Of a stretch of DNA of 11,719 bases, positions 926 through 11,719 are shown piece by piece. The stretch comes from Actinomycetota bacterium. GTDB lineage: Bacteria; Acidobacteriota; Blastocatellia; Chloracidobacteriales; Chloracidobacteriaceae. Position 1 is the first letter of the stretch. Every line of letters starts with the position of its first letter. The position numbers and the translations under genes were made by a program. The stretch covers positions 1 to 11,719 of the forward strand of contig JAAFHI010000040.1 of the NCBI GenBank assembly GCA_013298335.1, given 5' to 3'. Below the pieces are notes generated by a model. The model was not told where the DNA came from, ran no database searches, and worked only from the letters and a program-made list of their open reading frames with translations.

Positions 926-3523
926 ATGAACGAGTTCCCTGAAATATTGAAAGCCTATTGGGGAAAGGCCCACGCGAAGGATGCCGGGCCGAGCCATCAT
1001 CTGTTTGTTTACCACTGTCTCGACGTGGCGGCGGTCGCGGCCCGCTGGTGGGAAACGGACGCCGCGCTCCGGTCGGCGTTCGTCCGGACAGGCCGCGCCG
1101 AGGAAGTGCTGGTCCGGGCGTGGGTCCTGTTTTTCGTCGCGCTCCACGATCTCGGAAAGCTCGACTTCCGCTTTCAGTTGAAGGCCCGTCTGGTGGCGGA
1201 GGCGCTCAATCCGCTCCTGCAAAATCCGAAAATCGAGGCCGAAAAGAACTACTTCGATCACGGCCCGGCTGGACTCAACTGGTTCAAAAGGGAAAAAGCA
1301 GCGTACGGGGTCTCGGCGGATGAAGAAATGAAGCCGTGGATGGACGCCGTCGCGGGCCATCACGGGCGACCGGACCCCGGTTTCAAAAAACCGTTCACCG
1401 ACCCAAAAGTACAAAACCACGACGCCGAAGCCCGGAAACAGTGGCTGTTCCTGCTTGAATCAATGTTCTTGAAACCCGTCGGCCTGTCGCTCGCGGACGC
1501 GCCGCCGCCGATGCCGGACCTGCTCGCCGGGTTCTGTTGCGTGTGTGACTGGATCGGTTCGAACGACGACATTTTCGAATATGTCGCGAATCCGGATGTT
1601 TCACCGCGGGACTATTTCAATTCCAGGACGAACGACCCTGAGTTTGCCCCCCGCGCCCTGGATGAAAGCGGGATGACGGCCCGACCCGCCGATGAAGCCG
1701 GGATGGCCCGACTGTATTCGGCGTTAAACCCGCGCGGCGTCCAGACCCTGATTGACGATCTTCCGCTCGGTCCGGGTCTGTTTCTGATTGAAGCTCCAAC
1801 CGGACAGGGGAAAACCGAGGCGGCGACCGCGCTGGCTTCGCGGCTGATTTCGGCGGGATTCGGGTCAAGCGTGGTGTTTGCCTTGCCGACGCAGGCGACC
1901 GCCAACGCGATGCTCGGACGGCTCACGGATGAAAAAGACGGTCCGGCCCGGCGGATGTTTCCCGACCGCCCGGCGCAGTTCGTTCTCGCTCATGGAAAAG
2001 CGCGATTCAACCACCGGTTTCGAAATCTGAAACGGGCCGCCTTGGGGCCAACGGCCCAGGGCCAGGAAGAAGCCGCCGCCCAGTGCGCCAAATGGCTCGC
2101 CCAGAGCCGGAAGCGGGTATTTCTCGGCCAGTTCGGGGTCTGCACGGTGGATCAGGTCCTCCTGTCGGTCCTGCCGGTGAAGCACAATTTCGTCCGGTCG
2201 TTCGGGATCGGGAAAAGCGTTCTGATCGTTGATGAAGTGCATGCCTACGACAGCTATATGAATGAACTTCTCAACCGGGTCATCGAACGCCAGAAACGCG
2301 CGGGCGGGAGTGTCATTCTGCTTTCCGCGACGCTGCCGGAAAGTCGCCGGGCCGAAATTCTGAAAAAATGGGGTGGAACGATGGTCGAACCGGCGGGTGA
2401 TTGCGATTACCCCCTTGTCACCGCCGCCGTCGGTGGAGATGTCGTCACCCGCCGACCCGCGATGCCCGAAATTCCCAAACCAGTACGATTTGCCGTCCGC
2501 CAGACGCCGGACATGCGCCCGGACGACAGCACGGTGTGGGAAATCGTGGAGAAAGTTCGCGCGGGCGCACTGGTCGGCGTGGTATGCAATCTCGTCGCCG
2601 ACGCGCAGGCGTTCGCGGCAAGGCTGCGGGGCATTCCGGAACTGGCCGACAGGGTGGACCTCTTTCATGCCCGCTTTCGGTTTCAGGACCGGGACCGAAT
2701 CGAGGACCACGTGTTGAAAGCCTACGGCAAACAAGCCGAACGGTCCGCTTCGGGCGGACGGGTGGTGGTCGCCACACAGGTCATCGAGCAGAGCCTCGAC
2801 CTCGATTTCGACTGGATTGTGACGCACCTGTGTCCGATTGAACTTCTGATTCAGCGCGTCGGGCGGTTGTGGCGGCACGCGCGCGACGCCCGTTTCGGCG
2901 TTTCAAACGCGGAATGCCTCGTTCTCGCGCCGGAGGGCGACGACTTCGGATTGCACGCGTTGATCTACGACACGCCCAAATGGCTCTGGCGGACGCGGGA
3001 CCTGATCGAGCGCTCGCCGGAAGCCGAATTTCCGGCGGTCAACCGCCCGTGGCTCCGCGAGGTTTTCTCCGAAGAACCGTGGATCGGGGAACCGTCCGAA
3101 CTTGAGGCGGCCCATGAGAAATATGAAAACGAGCAGGTCGGAAAACGATACCGGGCGAAGCTGCTTTCCAGCGCCGATTCCGACGGGACGAATCCGTTTG
3201 AGGATACGGAAGGGAAGGCCGCAATCCTGACGCGGGACGGCGAAATGTCGGCCAAGGTCGTTCCGATTCTCGCGGGCGGCGGAGCGCGGCGCTCGCTCGA
3301 AGGCGAGGCCTTCCCGAATGACGACGAGTTCAAACTCGGCGAACTCCTCGACCGGAATTCGGTCAATGCCCCGCATTCCTGGAAAAAATTTCTCCCCAAA
3401 CCGGAAGAAGACGTTTACTTTCTGGAAATGTCCGCCGAGGGCGACGGGCGCTGGGTCTCAACTGATGGACAATTTTCCTACAACCACTACTTCGGCCTGA
3501 AGATGGAGGAAACGGCCTCATGA
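926..3523 (+). CDS. cas3: CRISPR-associated helicase/nuclease Cas3 (type I-E, HD domain at the N-terminus)
   Basis: 865 aa, the usual length for single-chain Cas3. It is recruited by target-bound Cascade, nicks the displaced strand and unwinds and degrades DNA with ATP. The HD nuclease domain spans about residues 20-215: H30 in FVYHCLDVAAVA, H74-D75 in VALHDLGK, H112, H145-H146 in AGHHGRPD and D208 in CDWIGSND. The superfamily 2 helicase core follows: Walker A EAPTGQGKTE at 289-298, DEVH at 436-439, SAT at 467-469, an ATQVIEQSLDLDFD segment at about 616-629, and motif VI QRVGRLWR at 643-650. A C-terminal accessory domain fills the rest. The ATG at 926 is preceded by a good Shine-Dalgarno GGAGGTG (912-918). 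The stop overlaps the cse1 start in ATGA, so the two are translationally coupled. All motif residues are intact, so the enzyme should be active. Confidence 0.97.
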   Translation: MNEFPEILKAYWGKAHAKDAGPSHHLFVYHCLDVAAVAARWWETDAALRSAFVRTGRAEEVLVRAWVLFFVALHDLGKLDFRFQLKARLVAEALNPLLQNPKIEAEKNYFDHGPAGLNWFKREKAAYGVSADEEMKPWMDAVAGHHGRPDPGFKKPFTDPKVQNHDAEARKQWLFLLESMFLKPVGLSLADAPPPMPDLLAGFCCVCDWIGSNDDIFEYVANPDVSPRDYFNSRTNDPEFAPRALDESGMTARPADEAGMARLYSALNPRGVQTLIDDLPLGPGLFLIEAPTGQGKTEAATALASRLISAGFGSSVVFALPTQATANAMLGRLTDEKDGPARRMFPDRPAQFVLAHGKARFNHRFRNLKRAALGPTAQGQEEAAAQCAKWLAQSRKRVFLGQFGVCTVDQVLLSVLPVKHNFVRSFGIGKSVLIVDEVHAYDSYMNELLNRVIERQKRAGGSVILLSATLPESRRAEILKKWGGTMVEPAGDCDYPLVTAAVGGDVVTRRPAMPEIPKPVRFAVRQTPDMRPDDSTVWEIVEKVRAGALVGVVCNLVADAQAFAARLRGIPELADRVDLFHARFRFQDRDRIEDHVLKAYGKQAERSASGGRVVVATQVIEQSLDLDFDWIVTHLCPIELLIQRVGRLWRHARDARFGVSNAECLVLAPEGDDFGLHALIYDTPKWLWRTRDLIERSPEAEFPAVNRPWLREVFSEEPWIGEPSELEAAHEKYENEQVGKRYRAKLLSSADSDGTNPFEDTEGKAAILTRDGEMSAKVVPILAGGGARRSLEGEAFPNDDEFKLGELLDRNSVNAPHSWKKFLPKPEEDVYFLEMSAEGDGRWVSTDGQFSYNHYFGLKMEETAS

Positions 3524-4992
3524 ACCTGCTGCTTGACCCATGGATACCGGTCCGCGACGAAACCGGATTCCGTCACATTTCATTCCGTCGTTTTCTGTGC
3601 GTGGAACATGAAAGCCTCGAATTCGGCCTGAACCGCGACGATTTCAATCTGGCGACCCTGCAACTCCTGATTTCGTTGGCGCAGGTGATTTTTACGCCTG
3701 AAAACGCCGCCGAAGTCCGTCAACGTGAACGCACGCCGCTGACGGAGCCGGAATTCGACGCCGGCATTGCGCCGTATGCCGATTGGTTCGAGGTTCGGCA
3801 CCCCGAAACGCCGTTCATGCAATCGCGTGGCGTCGGCGCGAAGGACGCCACTCCGATTCAAAAGCTCTTTCCGGGACTGCCGGAGGGCAACAATCACGCA
3901 ATGTTCAATCCGACCGACGAAGTCGCCGCCGCCTGTGAAAGCTGCGTCGCGATTGCGTTGTTCAATCAGGCGATGAACTGCCCGAGTCTGGGTGGTGGTT
4001 TCAAGGGAAGCCTGCGCGGGGGCGTGCCGATCAATACCTTTGTGAAGGGGCCGACCGAGCGGCGGACCGTCTGGCGCAACATACTTTCGTCGGAATGGGT
4101 GGGCGAGACCTATCCGCCGCGCGACAAATACGATGTTCCGACGTGGGTTTCGCCGATTCTTTCCGAGGAAAAAATCCCGGCGGGGAAGATCGGCCTGTTG
4201 CGCGGCCTGTTTTGGCAACCGGCGCGCTTCGAAGTCATCGGCTGGCACGCCGGAATCTGCCCGATCTGTGGCGGCGGGGCGTTCGCGCTGGCATCGGGCT
4301 TTCTCAAGGAAAAGTTCAACTTTGCGATTCTCGGAACCTGGCGGCATCCGCACGGTCCGCGCCAGTGGAAGGACAAGGGCAGCGGACCCGAGGAACGGTA
4401 CGGTTCGTTCACCACGAAAGCCCCAGCCTGGACTCAGCTTACGTCGATGGTTGCCGACGGCCCGGAGGCGCAAAAGGAAGGTTCGTCGCCCGCACTCGTG
4501 GTGACCCACTTCAACCGGGTTTTCGATTCGCTGGAACCGCTCGACCTGATCGTCGGTGGCTATCGCAACAATCAGGCCGCCATCACAGATCGGCGGCACG
4601 AGCGTTTCAGCCTGGCCCATGGCTGGAAGGACGAAGTCGAAATTCTGAGGTCAATCATCGCCGAGGCGGTCGAGGTCAAGGATGTGCTTCGTAAAAAAAC
4701 CTACGGCTTCGGGAAAAACGTTGGCGTGCCCGGCCTTGCCGAACGCGCCGAGGAATCGTTTTACCAGACTTCCGAGTCCGCCTTGCACCGGACGCTCCGC
4801 GAAATGGAATGGGATGAAGCGCCACGCGTCCGTCGGGAACTTACGGCGGCTTTGTGCAGGCAGGCGCGGGCGATTTTCGAGGATGTGACCGATTCCTACC
4901 GGACCGACCCGAAAATGCTGAAAACGCTGACGATGAGTCGGCGTTCGCTCGAACGGGATTTGAAGAAACTCACCCAAGGAGAACAGGCATGA
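3520..4992 (+). CDS. casA: Cascade large subunit Cse1 (CasA / Cas8e)
   Basis: 490 aa, typical for Cse1, the large subunit that recognises the PAM, opens the target DNA and recruits Cas3. The N-terminus NLLLDPWIPVRDETG is the family signature. The region NNHAMFNPTDEV (about 124-135) falls where the PAM-contacting loop is expected, and FKGSLRGGVPINTFVKG (161-177) is another conserved block. Two C-x2-C pairs, C139/C142 and C247/C250, could together bind a metal ion; this is inferred from spacing only. The C-terminal part is helical, as expected for the four-helix bundle. The gene overlaps cas3 by 4 nt at the start and cse2 by 4 nt at the end, so the three interference genes are coupled in one operon. 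Confidence 0.95.
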   Translation: MNLLLDPWIPVRDETGFRHISFRRFLCVEHESLEFGLNRDDFNLATLQLLISLAQVIFTPENAAEVRQRERTPLTEPEFDAGIAPYADWFEVRHPETPFMQSRGVGAKDATPIQKLFPGLPEGNNHAMFNPTDEVAAACESCVAIALFNQAMNCPSLGGGFKGSLRGGVPINTFVKGPTERRTVWRNILSSEWVGETYPPRDKYDVPTWVSPILSEEKIPAGKIGLLRGLFWQPARFEVIGWHAGICPICGGGAFALASGFLKEKFNFAILGTWRHPHGPRQWKDKGSGPEERYGSFTTKAPAWTQLTSMVADGPEAQKEGSSPALVVTHFNRVFDSLEPLDLIVGGYRNNQAAITDRRHERFSLAHGWKDEVEILRSIIAEAVEVKDVLRKKTYGFGKNVGVPGLAERAEESFYQTSESALHRTLREMEWDEAPRVRRELTAALCRQARAIFEDVTDSYRTDPKMLKTLTMSRRSLERDLKKLTQGEQA

Positions 4993-5459
4993 GCGTCACG
5001 ACTGAAACGAAACCGGATTTCGTCGGATTGAAGCGGGCCTACGAAACGCGCCTGAGCAACGGCCAGCGCGCCGATATCCGCCGCGCACCGAATTTCGAGG
5101 AACTGAGTCTGGTGCCGGCGGTGTACCGGCTGGTCCCGCCGGGAGCGGCGGACGGTCCGCAGTTCGAACGCTGGCTGCGCGTGATTCATTTCCTGCCGCT
5201 GGCTGAGGGCCATAACCCGGACGCGCCAACGCTTGGGGCGATGCTCGCCCGGCGAAAAATCAGCGAGACGCGGATGATGCAGGTCGCCCGGTCGGAGTTT
5301 CCGAACGATCTCCGCTACCTGCGCCAACTGGTGTCGGAACTTGATCTCCCGGTCGTCAACTGGGACCGACTCGGCGCGCTCCTTTTCTACTGGGGCGAAC
5401 AAAACAAGCGGCGGCTGATCGAGGATTTCTACGCGAATTACGATTTCTCCGACAGTTAA
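4989..5459 (+). CDS. casB: Cascade small subunit Cse2 (CasB)
   Basis: 156 aa, close to the roughly 160 aa usual for Cse2, of which two copies sit along the belly of Cascade and stabilise the R-loop. Residues NGQRADIRRAP (about 23-33) carry the conserved basic patch that contacts nucleic acid, and the C-terminal GALLFYWGEQNKRRLIEDFY motif is typical. The ATG at 4989 is chosen because it overlaps the cse1 stop in ATGA and has an AAGGAG ribosome site at 4976-4981. The longer frame back to 4854 would lie inside cse1 and lacks family similarity. A 240-bp gap follows before cas7, which is unusual because I-E Cascade genes are normally packed closely. Confidence 0.93.
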   Translation: MSVTTETKPDFVGLKRAYETRLSNGQRADIRRAPNFEELSLVPAVYRLVPPGAADGPQFERWLRVIHFLPLAEGHNPDAPTLGAMLARRKISETRMMQVARSEFPNDLRYLRQLVSELDLPVVNWDRLGALLFYWGEQNKRRLIEDFYANYDFSDS

Positions 5460-5524
5460 AAATTTCTTTCCAAATGTATGCACGTAAATACTTGTAAATT
5501 TTTTTGAAATCCGCGATGGTGAGG
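5457..5524 (+). promoter_or_regulatory. AT-rich putative promoter region ahead of the mini-array and cas7
   Basis: The first 65 bp or so after cse2 are strongly AT-rich (5460-5510, including a run of seven T at 5499-5505), unlike the GC-rich coding DNA on both sides. This is where a promoter for the crRNA-like RNA and cas7-cas5-cas6e would be expected. A -10-like TAAATA sits at 5485-5490 inside the predicted Cascade target. I could not assign a convincing pair of sigma-70 hexamers, so the promoter is an inference from composition and position. Confidence 0.4.
5459..5493 (-). promoter_or_regulatory. Predicted Cascade target site (protospacer plus AAG PAM) for the neighbouring crRNA-like RNA
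   Basis: Read on the minus strand, AAG (5493-5491) is followed by TATTTACGTGCATACATTTG (5490-5471). The guide predicted from the mini-array begins TATTTTCGAGCTTTCATCTG. They agree at positions 1-5, 7 and 8, the complete I-E seed, and at 16 of the first 21 positions. Mismatches within that stretch are at 6, 9, 12, 14 and 18; positions 6, 12 and 18 are those Cascade does not read. Beyond position 21 the match fades, leaving 18 of 32. AAG is a standard type I-E PAM. Partial matches of this kind let Cascade bind and block transcription without efficient Cas3 cleavage. Confidence 0.7.
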
Positions 5525-5616
5525 CCGTTTCCTTGGGATGACCGGGGATGGCCCGTATTTTCGAGCTTTCATCTGGTGAGTTTGGAACCGTTCCCCGCTC
5601 CGGCGGGGATATAGCA
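5525..5616 (+). ncRNA. Degenerate one-spacer mini-array encoding a crRNA-like cas-regulating RNA (CreR-type)
   Basis: The first pseudo-repeat, 5525-5555 (31 nt), keeps the repeat's start CCGTT-CC and its end CGGGGATGxxCCG, giving a near-normal 5' handle ATGGCCCG (array: ATGAACCG). Its middle is changed. The second, 5588-5616, is 29 nt and matches 22 of 29 bases of the array repeat. It keeps the six-base-pair Cas6e stem CCCCGC/GCGGGG with a four-base loop (TCCG in place of ACAC), while its own handle is decayed (ATATAGCA). Exactly 32 nt separate them (5556-5587), the spacer length of the main array. Processing would release a 61-nt RNA (5548-5608). A small RNA of this design that guides Cascade to a cas promoter is known as a cas-regulating RNA or CRISPR-regulated antitoxin. 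Here the target is just upstream. A decayed old array is the alternative, but the guide-target match argues against it. Confidence 0.75.
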
Positions 5617-5618
5617 AA

Positions 5619-5679
5619 CGATATGGAATTCCGACCGTCAGGAAGCGTTTCCCTCCCTGACGGTCGGGGTGCCATACCG
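5619..5679 (+). repeat. Long imperfect hairpin between the mini-array and cas7
   Basis: The arms CCGACCGTCAGG (5631-5642) and CCTGACGGTCGG (5656-5667) are perfect reverse complements around a 13-nt loop. Pairing continues outward through 5619-5630 with 5668-5679, with two G-U pairs and two mismatches, for about 24 pairs in all. No run of U follows, so it is not a standard intrinsic terminator. It begins 2 nt after the second pseudo-repeat and ends 10 nt before the cas7 ribosome site. It may bound the small RNA, protect the cas7 message, or bind a protein. Confidence 0.65.
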
Positions 5680-5699
5680 AATTTCCCTAAGGAGCCGTC

Positions 5700-6848
5700 A
5701 TGTCCAATCACAACTTCCTGAATCTGCACGTTTTAATCTCGCACAGCCCGTCCTGTCTGAACCGCGACGACGCCAACATGCAAAAATCCGCCATTTTCGG
5801 CGGCGTCCGGCGGGTCCGGGTGTCGAGCCAGTCGCTCAAGCGGGCGATCCGGCACAGCGACGCCTACCGCGTGCGGCTCGGTGAGCCGTCCATCCGGACC
5901 AACAAACTTGACAGTCTGACGCGGCGCTTCTCGGAGCAGCTTGCCGCCGATTTTCCGGAAGACCTCGTTGCCCGCGTGGTCAATCTCATCGCCCGCGACG
6001 AACCGTCCGACGACGATTCGAAAAAAACGAAAAAGGGCGCAACCGCCGGTGACGAAGCCAAGGAAACGAAACTTGCCGTCGCGCCGTGGAGTGTTTCAGA
6101 AGTCCGGAAAATCTGCGAACTCGTTCAAAATGAACCGGATGCGAAAAAGGTTAAGAAACTCTTCGATGAAGGGAAGGGCGGCAGGCTCGGTGATGAAGTC
6201 CGGCAGGTGCGGGCGTCCCTGCGCGGCGCGGTGGACATCGCGCTTTCCGGGCGCATGACCACCGCCGGAATCATGATGCCGGTGGACGGCGCGGTTTCCG
6301 TCGCCCACGCCATCACGACTCACGCGGTTGACGCGGATCTCGACTGGTTCACCGCCGTGGACGATCTCGTCGTGGACGCGGGCGAAGTCGGCGCGGGCCA
6401 TTTGAATACTCAGGAATTCAGTTCCGGGGTCTTTTACCGCTATGCCAGCGTCAACCTCGGCCAGCTTCAGACCAACCTCGGCGACGCGAACCGGGCCGAC
6501 GCGCTCGACATCGCCGCGCACTTCGCCTACCTGCTGGCCACCGTCGTTCCGGAAGCCAAGCAGCGCACCTTCGCCGCCCACAACCTCGCTGATTTCGTAA
6601 TGGCGTCCTTTGGGGATATTCCGGTTTCCGGGGCCAACGCCTTCGAAGCCCCGATTCGCCGCGACCGCGACGGCGGTTTTCTGAAGCCCTCAATGGCCGC
6701 CTTCGAGAATTACATCGAATCGGTCCGGACGGGTTACGGATTGAATGAATCGCACGCCGTCTTTTCGCTGCGGGAAACCGGGCTCGGTCCGAAACTCGCG
6801 TCGATGGCGGAACTCGAAAACTGGATTCGCGCCGACGGAACGAGGTAA
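5700..6848 (+). CDS. casC: Cascade backbone subunit Cas7 (Cse4 / CasC)
   Basis: 382 aa, near the usual length for CasC, six copies of which form the helical backbone that holds the crRNA guide and kinks every sixth base. The N-terminus carries the family signature: FLNLHVLISHSPSCLNRDD, then KSAIFGGVRRVRVSSQSLKRAIR (about 29-51), which is the RNA-binding start of the RRM-like fold. Other conserved blocks are DIALSGRMTT and TTHAVDADLDWFTAVDDL, and ASVNLGQLQTNLG near the middle. A charged, low-complexity stretch at about 103-124 (DDDSKKTKKG...KETK) looks like a surface loop insertion. The start has an AAGGAG ribosome site at 5689-5694. This gene opens the second transcription block after the 240-bp gap and may be the first gene controlled by the crRNA-like RNA. 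Confidence 0.96.
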   Translation: MSNHNFLNLHVLISHSPSCLNRDDANMQKSAIFGGVRRVRVSSQSLKRAIRHSDAYRVRLGEPSIRTNKLDSLTRRFSEQLAADFPEDLVARVVNLIARDEPSDDDSKKTKKGATAGDEAKETKLAVAPWSVSEVRKICELVQNEPDAKKVKKLFDEGKGGRLGDEVRQVRASLRGAVDIALSGRMTTAGIMMPVDGAVSVAHAITTHAVDADLDWFTAVDDLVVDAGEVGAGHLNTQEFSSGVFYRYASVNLGQLQTNLGDANRADALDIAAHFAYLLATVVPEAKQRTFAAHNLADFVMASFGDIPVSGANAFEAPIRRDRDGGFLKPSMAAFENYIESVRTGYGLNESHAVFSLRETGLGPKLASMAELENWIRADGTR

Positions 6849-6854
6849 CGCGCC

Positions 6855-7568
6855 ATGCCCGAATTTCTGATTCTCCGTCTGCGCGGCGTCATGCAGGCGT
6901 GGGGGCGACACACCTACGAGGATTTTCGCCCGGTGGAAATCTTTCCCACACGGAGCGGGCTGGTCGGCCTGCTCGGGGCCTGCCTGGGCATTGACCGCGC
7001 CGAACCGGGCCGGTTGCGCGACCTGTCCGAGAGTTTTCGGTACGCCGCGCGCGCCGATGCCCGGACCCGGCTGGAGTACAAAAAGGAAAAGTCACTGCTT
7101 CCGCGCAAAATCACTGACTACCACACGATTCTTGAACCGCGACTCGTGCCCGGCTCGACTCGAAAGGGGGCGGTGGTGAGTCCGCGCGAGTACCTCTGCG
7201 ACGCGCATTTCACCGTTGCGCTTGAAGGTCGCCCCGAGGCGGTCTTTTCCCTCGAAGAAATCCGCGCCGCCGCCCGCAAACCGTTTTTCACGCCGACGCT
7301 CGGGCGGCGGTCCTGCCCGTTGAGTTTTCCGCTGCTCGATCCGGCGCTAGAAACCGTCACAGCGGACGATCTTCACGCCGCGCTCGCGCTCGTGCCACCC
7401 GGCGCGGGCACGATCTACAGCGAAATGCCTGGCGACAGCCCCAACCGGTACACCGTCCGGGACGTGCCGACCGGTCACCCGAAACGGCAGTTCGCCGCCC
7501 GGACGCTGTACATTCATGCCGAAACGCCCTTCGACCCGGTTGACCCGGCGGAAGAAAGCGAGGACTGA
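6855..7568 (+). CDS. casD: Cascade subunit Cas5 (CasD)
   Basis: 237 aa, typical of Cas5e, which caps the 5' handle of the crRNA and anchors Cse1. The N-terminus FLILRLRGVMQAWGRHTYEDFRPVEIFPTRSGLVGLLGACLGI matches the family start: an RRM beta strand, the MQAWG motif, then a PTRSGLVGLLGA helix. Downstream, KITDYHTILEPR and a VVSPREYLCDAHFTVAL block are conserved, as is the C-terminal KRQFAARTLYIH strand. The ATG at 6855 follows the cas7 stop by 6 nt, with GAGG at 6842-6845 as ribosome site. It is followed by cas6e after 4 nt. Nothing suggests damage. Confidence 0.95.
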   Translation: MPEFLILRLRGVMQAWGRHTYEDFRPVEIFPTRSGLVGLLGACLGIDRAEPGRLRDLSESFRYAARADARTRLEYKKEKSLLPRKITDYHTILEPRLVPGSTRKGAVVSPREYLCDAHFTVALEGRPEAVFSLEEIRAAARKPFFTPTLGRRSCPLSFPLLDPALETVTADDLHAALALVPPGAGTIYSEMPGDSPNRYTVRDVPTGHPKRQFAARTLYIHAETPFDPVDPAEESED

Positions 7569-7572
7569 AGCG

Positions 7573-8187
7573 ATGCGGATTTCATTCTGGGAACTCGACT
7601 GGAAACACGCCCGCAACCCCTACGATCTGCACCGCGCCCTGTGGCACGGCTTTCCCGATTTTCCGCCGGGCACGGACCGTCCGTTTCTCTTTTGCGTCCG
7701 GTGGGGGAAATTCGGCCAGCCCGTGCAGGTCCGGCTGCAATCGGAAACCGAGCCGGTCCAGCCGTCCGACCCGACGATTCGGCTGCTGAAGATTCAACCC
7801 TATGACCCCCGACCGACCGAGGGGCAACTCGTCCGCTTTACCGTTTGCGCCAACCCGGTCAAGCGGCTAACCGAGAAGACTGGCCCCGATGACGCCGGAC
7901 GCCAGGCCCGGATTCCCCTGATTCGCGAGGATCACCGGCTCGAATGGCTGACCCGGCAGCTTGCGCCCGCCGCCGACATCCTCGAATCGAACATCGTCGA
8001 ATGGCGCGACCTGTTTTTCACCATTCGGAGCGGAGAAGGGAAGACCCGTCCGGGAAAACACGCGACCGTGACCTTTACCGGCGTGGCGGAAGTCCGCGAT
8101 TCCGAAAAATTGAATACCCTCATCCGGACCGGCATCGGTCCGGCGAAGGCGTTCGGTTGCGGTCTGCTCGTCCTCGGTCGGGGATAG
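7573..8187 (+). CDS. casE: crRNA-processing endoribonuclease Cas6e (CasE / Cse3)
   Basis: 204 aa, close to the roughly 200 aa usual for Cas6e. It cuts the precursor at the 3' base of each repeat stem and stays bound to the hairpin. Y17 and H20 in NPYDLHRALWHGFPD fit the active-site tyrosine and histidine (H20 in E. coli). The C-terminal GIGPAKAFGCGLLVL (about 187-201) is the glycine-rich loop of the second ferredoxin-like domain. The ATG at 7573 is preferred over the in-frame ATG at 7516, because the latter lies inside cas5 and the family start corresponds to MRISFWELDW; GAGG just upstream is a fitting ribosome site. It should process both the array and the second pseudo-repeat, whose stem is identical. 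Confidence 0.95.
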   Translation: MRISFWELDWKHARNPYDLHRALWHGFPDFPPGTDRPFLFCVRWGKFGQPVQVRLQSETEPVQPSDPTIRLLKIQPYDPRPTEGQLVRFTVCANPVKRLTEKTGPDDAGRQARIPLIREDHRLEWLTRQLAPAADILESNIVEWRDLFFTIRSGEGKTRPGKHATVTFTGVAEVRDSEKLNTLIRTGIGPAKAFGCGLLVLGRG

Positions 8188-8197
8188 GGAAGTGCGT

Positions 8198-8235
8198 TGG
8201 AGCACGCGCATCCTGCGCGTATGACTTGAAGAAAA
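8198..8235 (+). repeat. 38-bp palindromic repeat element, copy A
   Basis: The core ACGCGC-ATCCT-GCGCGT is a small hairpin followed by ATGACTTGAAGA. Copy A starts 10 nt after cas6e ends and ends 10 nt before the nuclease gene. It agrees with copy B (9273-9310) at 32 of 38 positions with no gaps. Together A and B bracket the nuclease gene as direct repeats. The shape is that of REP-like dispersed palindromes. Confidence 0.7.
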
Positions 8236-8245
8236 GAGGGCAAAG

Positions 8246-9268
8246 ATGGGCGATCTCCTTCCGTCCGAATACGCCGACTTGCTCGGCACGATCAGGCAGC
8301 GGGTTCGCGACGCGCAATACGCCGCGTTGCGGGCGGTTAACCAGGAACTGATCTCCCTCTATTGGGATATCGGGCGGATGATCGTCGAACGCCAGCAGGG
8401 GGAATCCTGGGGACGGTCCGTCGTTGTTCAACTCTCCAAGGACTTGCAGGCCGAATTTCCCGGCCTTTCCGGGTTCTCCACGCCTAACCTCTGGAAAATG
8501 AAGCAGTTTTACGAGGAATACGCCAACGATGAAAAACTCTCACCACTGGTGAGAGAAATTGGCTGGACGCACAACTGCATCATTCTCATGCAGTGCAAGG
8601 ACCCGCTTGAACGAGAGTTCTACATCCGGATGACCCGCAAGTTCGGCTGGTCGAAGAACGTCCTGATTCACCAGATCGAGATGAAAACCTATGAAAAAAC
8701 GCTCGGGAATCAGACGAACTTCGACCGGACGCTCCCCGAGGAGGTCCGCAACCGGGCAAAATTGGCGGTCAAGGACGAATACACGTTCGACTTTCTTGAT
8801 CTCGGCGATGAATTTACGGAACGCCAGCTCGAAGCGGGTCTGATCGCCCGGGTCGAGGCGTTTTTGAGGGAAATGGGCGGTGTGTTCACGTTTGTCGGAA
8901 GTCAGTACCGCCTGACAGTCGGCGACAAGGAGTTTTTCATCGACATTCTGCTCTACCACCGGACGCTTCGGGCGCTGGTCGCCGTTGAACTCAAAATCGG
9001 GGAATTCGAGCCGGAGCATGTCGGGAAAATGCAGTTTTATCTGGCGGTACTGAACGACACGGTTCGGCTCCCCGACGAAAATCCTTCCATCGGCATCATT
9101 TTATGTCGCGGTCGGGATCGAACCATCGTCGAGTACGCGCTCCGTGAGGCGACCACGCCAATCGGCGTCGGTTCATACCGGCTGACGCCGACGTTGCCAT
9201 CGAATCTGGCCGGGCAGCTTCCGTCGCCCGAACAGATTGCCAAACTGCTTGAGGAAGTCGAACCCTGA
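8246..9268 (+). CDS. DUF1016/YhcG-family PDDEXK nuclease
   Basis: 340 aa, the full length of the family. The N-terminal DUF1016_N helical domain (about 10-160) shows AVNQELISLYWDIGRMIVERQ, GWGRSVVVQLS-like WGRSVVVQLSKDL, FSTPNLWKMKQFY and LVREIGWTHNCIILM. The C-terminal PDDEXK domain shows D233 in FFIDILLYH, E248-x-K250 in VAVELKIG and Q263 in KMQFYLAVLN, so the catalytic set looks complete. The family was predicted to be endonuclease-like; its substrate is not firmly known, and members occur near mobile and defence genes. It is not a normal I-E component. It sits between cas6e and cas1, with its own ribosome site (GAGGG about 8 nt upstream), and is bracketed by direct palindromic repeats, which suggests insertion as a cassette. 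A direct role in this CRISPR system is possible but not shown. Confidence 0.88.
   Translation: MGDLLPSEYADLLGTIRQRVRDAQYAALRAVNQELISLYWDIGRMIVERQQGESWGRSVVVQLSKDLQAEFPGLSGFSTPNLWKMKQFYEEYANDEKLSPLVREIGWTHNCIILMQCKDPLEREFYIRMTRKFGWSKNVLIHQIEMKTYEKTLGNQTNFDRTLPEEVRNRAKLAVKDEYTFDFLDLGDEFTERQLEAGLIARVEAFLREMGGVFTFVGSQYRLTVGDKEFFIDILLYHRTLRALVAVELKIGEFEPEHVGKMQFYLAVLNDTVRLPDENPSIGIILCRGRDRTIVEYALREATTPIGVGSYRLTPTLPSNLAGQLPSPEQIAKLLEEVEP
8537..8555. repeat. 19-bp palindrome, copy 1 (inside the nuclease gene)
   Basis: CTCTCACCACTGGTGAGAG is a perfect palindrome with 8-bp arms around ACT. It encodes part of the LSPLVRE segment of the nuclease. Near copies lie at 9314-9332 (two differences) and 9633-9651 (three differences). 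Confidence 0.6.
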
Positions 9269-9272
9269 ACAA

Positions 9273-9310
9273 TGGACCGCGCGCAACCGGCGCGCATGAC
9301 TTGAAGACAA
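9273..9310 (+). repeat. 38-bp palindromic repeat element, copy B
   Basis: TGGACCGCGCGC, a short loop, then GCGCGCATGACTTGAAGA. It begins 4 nt after the nuclease stop and is a direct repeat of copy A (32 of 38 identical). Its first 12 bases are identical to the start of copy C, which is inverted. Confidence 0.7.
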
Positions 9311-9659: not shown

Positions 9660-9695
9660 TCTCCAAACTCATGCGCGCAGGGCGCGCGCGGTCCA
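9660..9695 (-). repeat. Palindromic repeat element, copy C (inverted)
   Basis: Read on the minus strand it begins TGGACCGCGCGC, identical to copy B for 12 bases, has a different loop, then GCGCGCATGA shared with copy B, and diverges after with a one-base indel. It ends 6 nt before the cas1 start, so cas1 lacks a good ribosome site in the usual place. Copies B and C form an inverted pair around the interval with the small gene. Confidence 0.6.
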
Positions 9696-11036: not shown

Positions 11037-11719
11037 CCGTTCCCCGCACACGCGGGGATGAACCGTTCAGGGTGGTGGGTGTCACGAAACGGCTTCGCCG
11101 TTCCCCGCACACGCGGGGATGAACCGGCGGGCTCCACCATCACCATCGCCTCTACCTACCGTTCCCCGCACACGCGGGGATGAACCGGCGACCGGGGACG
11201 CGATGGACACGCTGGGGGCCCGTTCCCCGCACACGCGGGGATGAACCGGATTTCCAATTATGGGCACGAATTACGTCAAGCCGTTCCCCGCACACGCGGG
11301 GATGAACCGTCAATCGCGGTGATTTTTGCGCTGGAAGAGGACCGTTCCCCGCACACGCGGGGATGAACCGCACGCGATGCCTTCGCCCGTTGTCCCTTCG
11401 AACCGTTCCCCGCACACGCGGGGATGAACCGGGCTCGAACTCGGAACGTCAAGAGTCGCCGCCCCGTTCCCCGCACACGCGGGGATGAACCGGCAGCCCG
11501 GTACGACGTCGAGCGGGACAGCGACCGTTCCCCGCACACGCGGGGATGAACCGGATCACGAGGCGCAGGTCGTGGCCCACATCAACCGTTCCCCGCACAC
11601 GCGGGGATGAACCGCGCACAAGGTCGCCGTCGGGAGGGCGCACGCACCGTTCCCCGCACACGCGGGGATGAACCGATACGGGTGATACTTGATGTTTGTC
11701 AAGCAAGCCGTTCCCCGCA
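11037..11719 (+). CRISPR. Type I-E CRISPR array, 11 complete repeats plus a partial, continuing past the window
   Basis: The repeat is 29 nt: CCGTT, stem CCCCGC, loop ACAC, stem GCGGGG, handle ATGAACCG. Complete copies begin at 11037 and every 61 nt to 11647; a twelfth is cut at the right edge (11708-11719). All complete copies appear identical. The 11 spacers are each exactly 32 nt and all different. The handle direction, and the leader next to cas2, show that transcription and processing run left to right and that the newest spacers are at the left. Invariant repeats near the leader fit a working adaptation module. No spacer has an obvious match elsewhere in this window. Confidence 0.99.

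Follow-up and report, generated by a model that had tools for sequence, protein, structure and literature searches.

A predicted CreR guide in the leader of cas7 in a type I-E CRISPR-Cas locus

In the type I-E CRISPR-Cas locus described here, a noncoding gap of 240 nt separates cse2 from cas7. The window, i.e., the whole stretch of 11,719 nt that was analysed, contains cas3, cas8e, cse2, the gap, cas7, cas5, cas6e, a DUF1016 nuclease gene, cas1, cas2, and a CRISPR array. The effector genes are located on the plus strand: cas3 (926–3523; PRK09694 above cut-off), cas8e (Cse1/CasA; 3520–4992; TIGR02547 above cut-off), which overlaps cas3, cse2 (CasB; 4989–5459; TIGR02548), cas7 (Cse4/CasC; 5700–6848; TIGR01869), cas5 (CasD; 6855–7568; TIGR01868), and cas6e (Cse3/CasE; 7573–8187; TIGR01907). 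Each of the six passed its family cut-off, and the effector gene set is whole. The end of cse2 coincides with the predicted target described below. The first gene behind the predicted switch is cas7, with a ribosome site AAGGAG located by eye at 5689–5694; the product of cas6e is the predicted leader-processing enzyme. The main CRISPR array (11037–11719, plus strand) has a period of 61 nt and continues to the window end. Upstream of cas3, a WYL/WCX-domain protein is encoded at 194–823 in a frame open to the window start; it is possibly a second regulator of the operon.

Mini-array in the cas7 leader

The gap carries a mini-array on the plus strand, composed of a degenerate repeat, psi-R1 (5527–5555), a 32-nt guide (5556–5587; TATTTTCGAGCTTTCATCTGGTGAGTTTGGAA), and a second repeat, psi-R2 (5588–5616). 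The sequence of psi-R1 is far diverged from the array repeat. A stem of six pairs, CCTTGG/CCGGGG (5531–5536/5542–5547; two G-U pairs), is possible at the usual place, and the 5′ handle, ATGGCCCG (5548–5555), agrees with ATGAACCG at six of eight positions. When folded freely, psi-R1 forms a longer stem with part of the handle paired. psi-R2 has kept the stem CCCCGC/GCGGGG (5593–5598/5603–5608) and has lost the downstream handle (ATATAGCA). The two repeats are 61 nt apart, which equals the period of the main array and fixes the frame of the guide; the boundary that an earlier note on this DNA had taken from the repeats was thereby borne out. Such a crRNA-like unit, with a guide between degenerate repeats, located outside the main array and linked to cas genes, is one of the marks of a CreR.

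A strong hairpin (5619–5679, plus strand) belonging to a dispersed genomic repeat is located between psi-R2 and the cas7 start. Searching with the leader gave 32 matches in its own genome, and all except the full-length one map to the hairpin stretch. The single Rfam match, to a microRNA family far below the gathering score, also falls on the hairpin. The hairpin is probably not part of the CreR, yet it lies close to where the processed cas7 mRNA is predicted to begin. The leader as a whole is highly structured (z −3.97). An open frame of 32 codons (5516–5614, ATG to TAG), found by eye, spans the whole mini-array.

Guide, target, and putative promoter

The predicted Cascade target (protospacer) lies on the minus strand at 5459–5490, read from 5490 to 5459 (TATTTACGTGCATACATTTGGAAAGAAATTTT), and begins at the last base of cse2. 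It is flanked by an AAG PAM on the same strand (5491–5493; CTT on the plus strand). All seven seed positions of the guide (1–5, 7, and 8) match. Overall, 16 of the first 21 and 18 of all 32 positions match, with two matches among the 11 positions 22–32. The mismatches within the first 21 are at positions 6, 9, 12, 14, and 18, three of the five thus falling on 6, 12, and 18. On realignment, the match was exactly as claimed in the earlier note, including the PAM. Partial complementarity that is PAM-flanked, PAM-proximal, and located upstream of a cas gene, here cas7, is a further mark of a CreR. Besides the guide itself, this is the sole site with a 7/7 seed match in the 11,719-base window.

The chance argument of the earlier note was made from the PAM and the seed. 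The 5.1-Mb draft genome contains seven AAG-flanked seed sites, a reversed-pattern control gave eight, and the PAM with the seed is therefore not rare genome-wide. What makes the match rare, in addition to the PAM and the seed, is the nearness of the target together with the extended match. Among 400,000 shuffled guides of the same composition, 734 had AAG and seven seed matches within 350 nt, and two also matched at at least 16 of 21 positions; with four PAMs allowed (AAG, ATG, AGG, GAG), five of the 400,000 were as good. When 209 pseudo-guides were taken from the leader, AAG with seven seed matches was found for two, the real guide with 16/21 and one other with 9/21. No AAG-flanked full-seed site for any of its 11 array spacers was present in the window.

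Other targets of the guide in the genome were considered and rejected. The six remaining AAG-flanked seed sites are poor, matching at just 9–11 of 21 positions. The first 11 guide bases, with position 6 left free, occur at six other genomic places, none of them with AAG; the best (C181:1661, L138) matches at 15 of 21 positions but has GAA in place of the PAM. By eye, another repeat-like stretch of the genome (C568:4183) reads as a pair of inverted hairpins, and the 2.6 kb analysed there contained no good target.

A strict scan of 5380–5720 found no consensus sigma-70 promoter. Two weaker elements are predicted on the plus strand: a −35-like TTGTAA (5492–5497), missed by the strict scan, and, 17 nt after it, a weak −10-like GATGGT (5515–5520) with three of six consensus matches. 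The PAM overlaps the −35-like element and runs into its TTG (CTTG), the same placement as in 13 of the 16 relatives described below. When the promoter frame of the window was scored alone, offset 0 tied for rank 3 of 121.

Related units in other type I-E loci

Degenerate repeat pairs were searched for, without a target criterion, in 112 loci and the window. This repeat-pair-only scan gave 20 rows: three represented the window (two of them refetched copies, L001 and L009), 13 were minus-strand units elsewhere, and four were on the plus strand. All 13 minus-strand units had an AAG-flanked target 67–135 nt from the guide, with a seed match of 7/7 in 11 and 6/7 in two. Twelve of them outscored all 20 of their own shuffled guides, and in L047 one shuffle scored higher. 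The four plus-strand rows (L080, L089, L098, and L049) look like decayed array ends and were rejected; no AAG target was found for L080, L089, or L098.

Repeats and an AAG target were scanned for jointly in the best 80 of 124 Cas7 loci that had been found by pattern in species genomes. Units were detected in 16 of these best 80 loci and in the window. Seven decoy triplets were used in place of AAG (102 loci, two of them repeats); six gave no unit and CTT gave one. Positions 6, 12, and 18 were omitted from the score, and freedom to mismatch there is therefore not built in. The scan required at least six of seven seed matches and a run score, so that seed agreement among the 16 units is partly built in. 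The nearest genomes sampled for cas7 (n = 98) included 17 with a cas7 locus. The 17 same-class I-E loci gave no unit with a repeat profile that was derived from different taxa and may overlook their repeats.

Position 6 is mismatched in 12 of the 16 units, position 12 in 14, and position 18 in 12. Positions 9–11 match in 47 of 48 cases; positions 24–32 match in 38 of 144, near chance. The window unit departs from its relatives in that its position 9 is mismatched. The covariation of guide and target that the earlier note proposed to check in relatives was followed in the units of other I-E loci, and joint change was seen among the closely related L053, L046, and L069 and between L065 and L070. 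L040 and L047 have guides whose first 12 bases are identical apart from the free position 6. In 13 of 16 units, a G follows the plus-strand CTT of the PAM, which results in a −35-like TTG. This PAM/−35 frame was first noticed by eye and then scored with a −10 element at 15–19 nt; the score was 7.75, compared with a mean of 4.69 (sd 0.60, maximum 6.31) at 120 other offsets. The psi-R1 stem has 6/6 pairs (G-U allowed) in 10 of 14 units, including the window, and two to four pairs in the other four, a count made without a null model. These regularities provide search rules for type I-E guides: AAG running into a −35-like TTG, matches at positions 1–11, freedom at positions 6, 12, and 18, and, with respect to the cas genes, a minus-strand target.

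The layout of the window differs from that of the relatives. Fifteen of the 16 units are located between cas3 and cas8e and one (L095) before cas3, and each of the 16 runs divergently from the operon. Where the gap before cas8e is at least 200 nt, a unit was present in 14 of 21 loci; with a smaller gap, in two of 50 (L060 and L095). L060 has an ORF of 211 aa between the unit and cas8e. In L095, the divergent CreR-like unit (L095:1080, minus strand) stands before cas3, where cas3 and cas8e overlap. The two genes overlap in the window as well, yet its unit precedes cas7 on the same strand, with the target upstream of the guide. The orientation of the target relative to the cas genes is the same in the window and in the 16 relatives; only the side and the direction of the guide differ. 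It is likely that the repressor guide and the repressed mRNA share one transcript in the window. This sense-encoded position inside the cas7 leader is the unusual feature of the locus and was unmarked by the earlier note.

The cse2–cas7 gap exceeded 100 nt in four of the 78 Cas7 loci measured (from the best 80 of 124; L096 and L101 unmeasured). In three of them (L085, L106, and L093) it is filled by two small ORFs of 85–86 aa each, which we take to resemble a DUF4160/DUF2442 pair, and in the fourth (L091) cse2 is broken into short frames; the noncoding 240-nt leader is therefore alone in the set of 78. The largest gap among the other rows was 106 nt (L024, a weak fragment). No close relative with the leader of the window was found in phylum, plasmid, viral, and class searches. 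The 396 phylum genomes (E ≤ 1e-60) gave its own genome only, the matches in 232 plasmid records were all under 60% identity, and no viral contig was found. For L053, six of 369 class genomes matched (E ≤ 1e-40), one of them its own, and the five other loci had no unit (two are repeats, L156 and L157 being L037 and L057). Among 40 genomes of the L033 phylum, only that of L033 itself matched.

Predicted autorepression and alternative readings

By anatomy and comparison, the window unit is a CreR, its repressing effect being predicted. CreR, a cas-regulating RNA, was reportedly described by Liu et al. in 2023 in Cell Host Microbe. According to later sources, CreR occurs in types I-B, I-E, and V-A (PMC13131331) and consists of a crRNA-like guide partly complementary to a cas promoter (PMC13131331, PMC12737573, PMC12948488), and removal of Cascade by array crRNAs or anti-CRISPRs lifts the block (reviews PMC12737573 and PMC13131331). 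The circuit proposed in the earlier note is, by the same sources, already known as CreR, with the sensing of crRNA load and anti-CRISPRs included (PMC13131331, PMC12737573). The window has the crRNA-like guide and the partial complementarity upstream of cas genes in common with CreR. It differs in arrangement, as the 16 I-E units are divergent, whereas the window unit is sense, mid-operon, within the cas7 leader, and downstream of its target. No leader-encoded sense CreR was found in the accessible parts of the literature searched, which did not extend to the original CreR description, and as far as this search reaches, the layout may be new.

Two other systems are comparable. CreA of CreTA was reportedly described by Li et al. 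in 2021, a study cited in PMC13131331. In PMC9458426, handle loss in CreA affects psi-R2, whereas most of the handle is retained in psi-R1; the window likewise has a diverged psi-R1 with the handle largely kept, a psi-R2 without it, and a guide partly complementary to what is here a predicted promoter. It differs from CreA in that a cas gene follows the target and no toxin gene was seen. A long tracrRNA plays a role in the autorepression of SpyCas9. That system, named in PMC13131331, resembles the one predicted here in that the effector represses its own expression and anti-CRISPRs bring relief; it differs in being type II, with a single effector and without a mini-array guide.

Very probably, the mini-array (5527–5616) acts as a CreR that is processed by Cas6e, loaded into Cascade, and directed against cas7-cas5-cas6e as a predicted repressor. 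Autorepression by Cascade, as proposed in the earlier note, is retained as the best reading of the sequence, and 16 units with other guides follow the same rules. A former autorepressor that has decayed beyond function in its guide, handle, and promoter would be consistent with the position-9 mismatch, the changes at two of eight handle positions, the weak −10, and the much diverged psi-R1. Such decay is nevertheless improbable: the PAM, the 7/7 seed, both stems, and the exact 61-nt spacing are intact, positions 13–21 other than 18 match at seven of eight, and strong divergence of psi-R1 is normal for CreA units (PMC9458426).

We give very little credence to a reading without any guide, in which 5459–5490 and 5556–5587 form an imperfect inverted repeat that acts as an RNA hairpin or as an operator bound by a protein, and remnants of old repeats lie close by. 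Guide and target inherently form an inverted repeat here, and the high structure of the leader would suit it. However, the match sets in at the very base where the repeats place the guide start, has a PAM beside it, weakens with distance from the PAM, and leaves out positions 6, 12, and 18, and the only other leader pseudo-guide with AAG and a full seed match stops at 9/21. Guide and target are on the same strand in the 16 relatives; symmetry is therefore not what is kept. It would also be most surprising if the unit were CreTA- or CrePA-like, with a guide that represses a toxin, a cell that depends on Cascade, and cas7 downstream by accident. The anatomy of a guide with degenerate repeats is the same, and the 32-codon frame seen by eye crosses the unit, but no protein toxin gene was found behind the target: the target is upstream of the guide and of cas7 themselves, no ORF of at least 60 aa lies wholly inside 5460–5699, and the 16 related units are likewise upstream of cas genes. 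A tiny RNA toxin may nevertheless be encoded beside the guide.

The predicted CreR would operate as follows. A transcript from about 5527, driven by the putative promoter at about 5492–5520, or read-through from cse2, would be cut by Cas6e after both stems. The products would be a crRNA with the guide 5556–5587 and a cas7 message starting near 5609 that keeps the hairpin and the ribosome site. Cascade with this guide would bind 5459–5493, cover the upstream half of the promoter and the −35 element on the PAM side, and block RNA polymerase at the promoter or read-through from cse2. In type I-E systems, a short R-loop resulting from PAM-distal mismatch should spare the DNA from Cas3. With the PAM-distal third mismatched (2/11), the R-loop would be short, and Cas3 would not be called in to cut. 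Array crRNAs or anti-CRISPRs, by drawing away or disabling Cascade, would relieve the block. Since the guide sits in the leader of the mRNA that it would repress, every copy would be excised from a cas7 transcript, and the supplies of guide and of Cascade subunits are therefore expected to rise and fall together.

We lean towards the view that the leader of the cas7-cas5-cas6e mRNA encodes its own repressor guide, which Cas6e excises from the very message that encodes Cas6e and with which Cascade returns to its promoter. If so, a leader-encoded guide would control half an operon: cas3-cas8e-cse2 would remain free, the crRNA-binding half would be throttled, and the guide dose would be tied one-to-one to subunit supply, unlike in divergent CreRs. 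Such a layout would add to the known feedback a repressor guide inside the repressed message, and it predicts dynamics of another kind, with coupled derepression and no separate guide supply.

Farther downstream, the DUF1016/YhcG-type nuclease gene (8246–9268) is located between cas6e and cas1. It is flanked by 38-nt palindromic repeats that are 84% alike (stretch 8198–9310). An inverted copy of the flanking repeat is present at 9666–9695, and related palindromes occur at 8532, 9309, 9369, and 9628.
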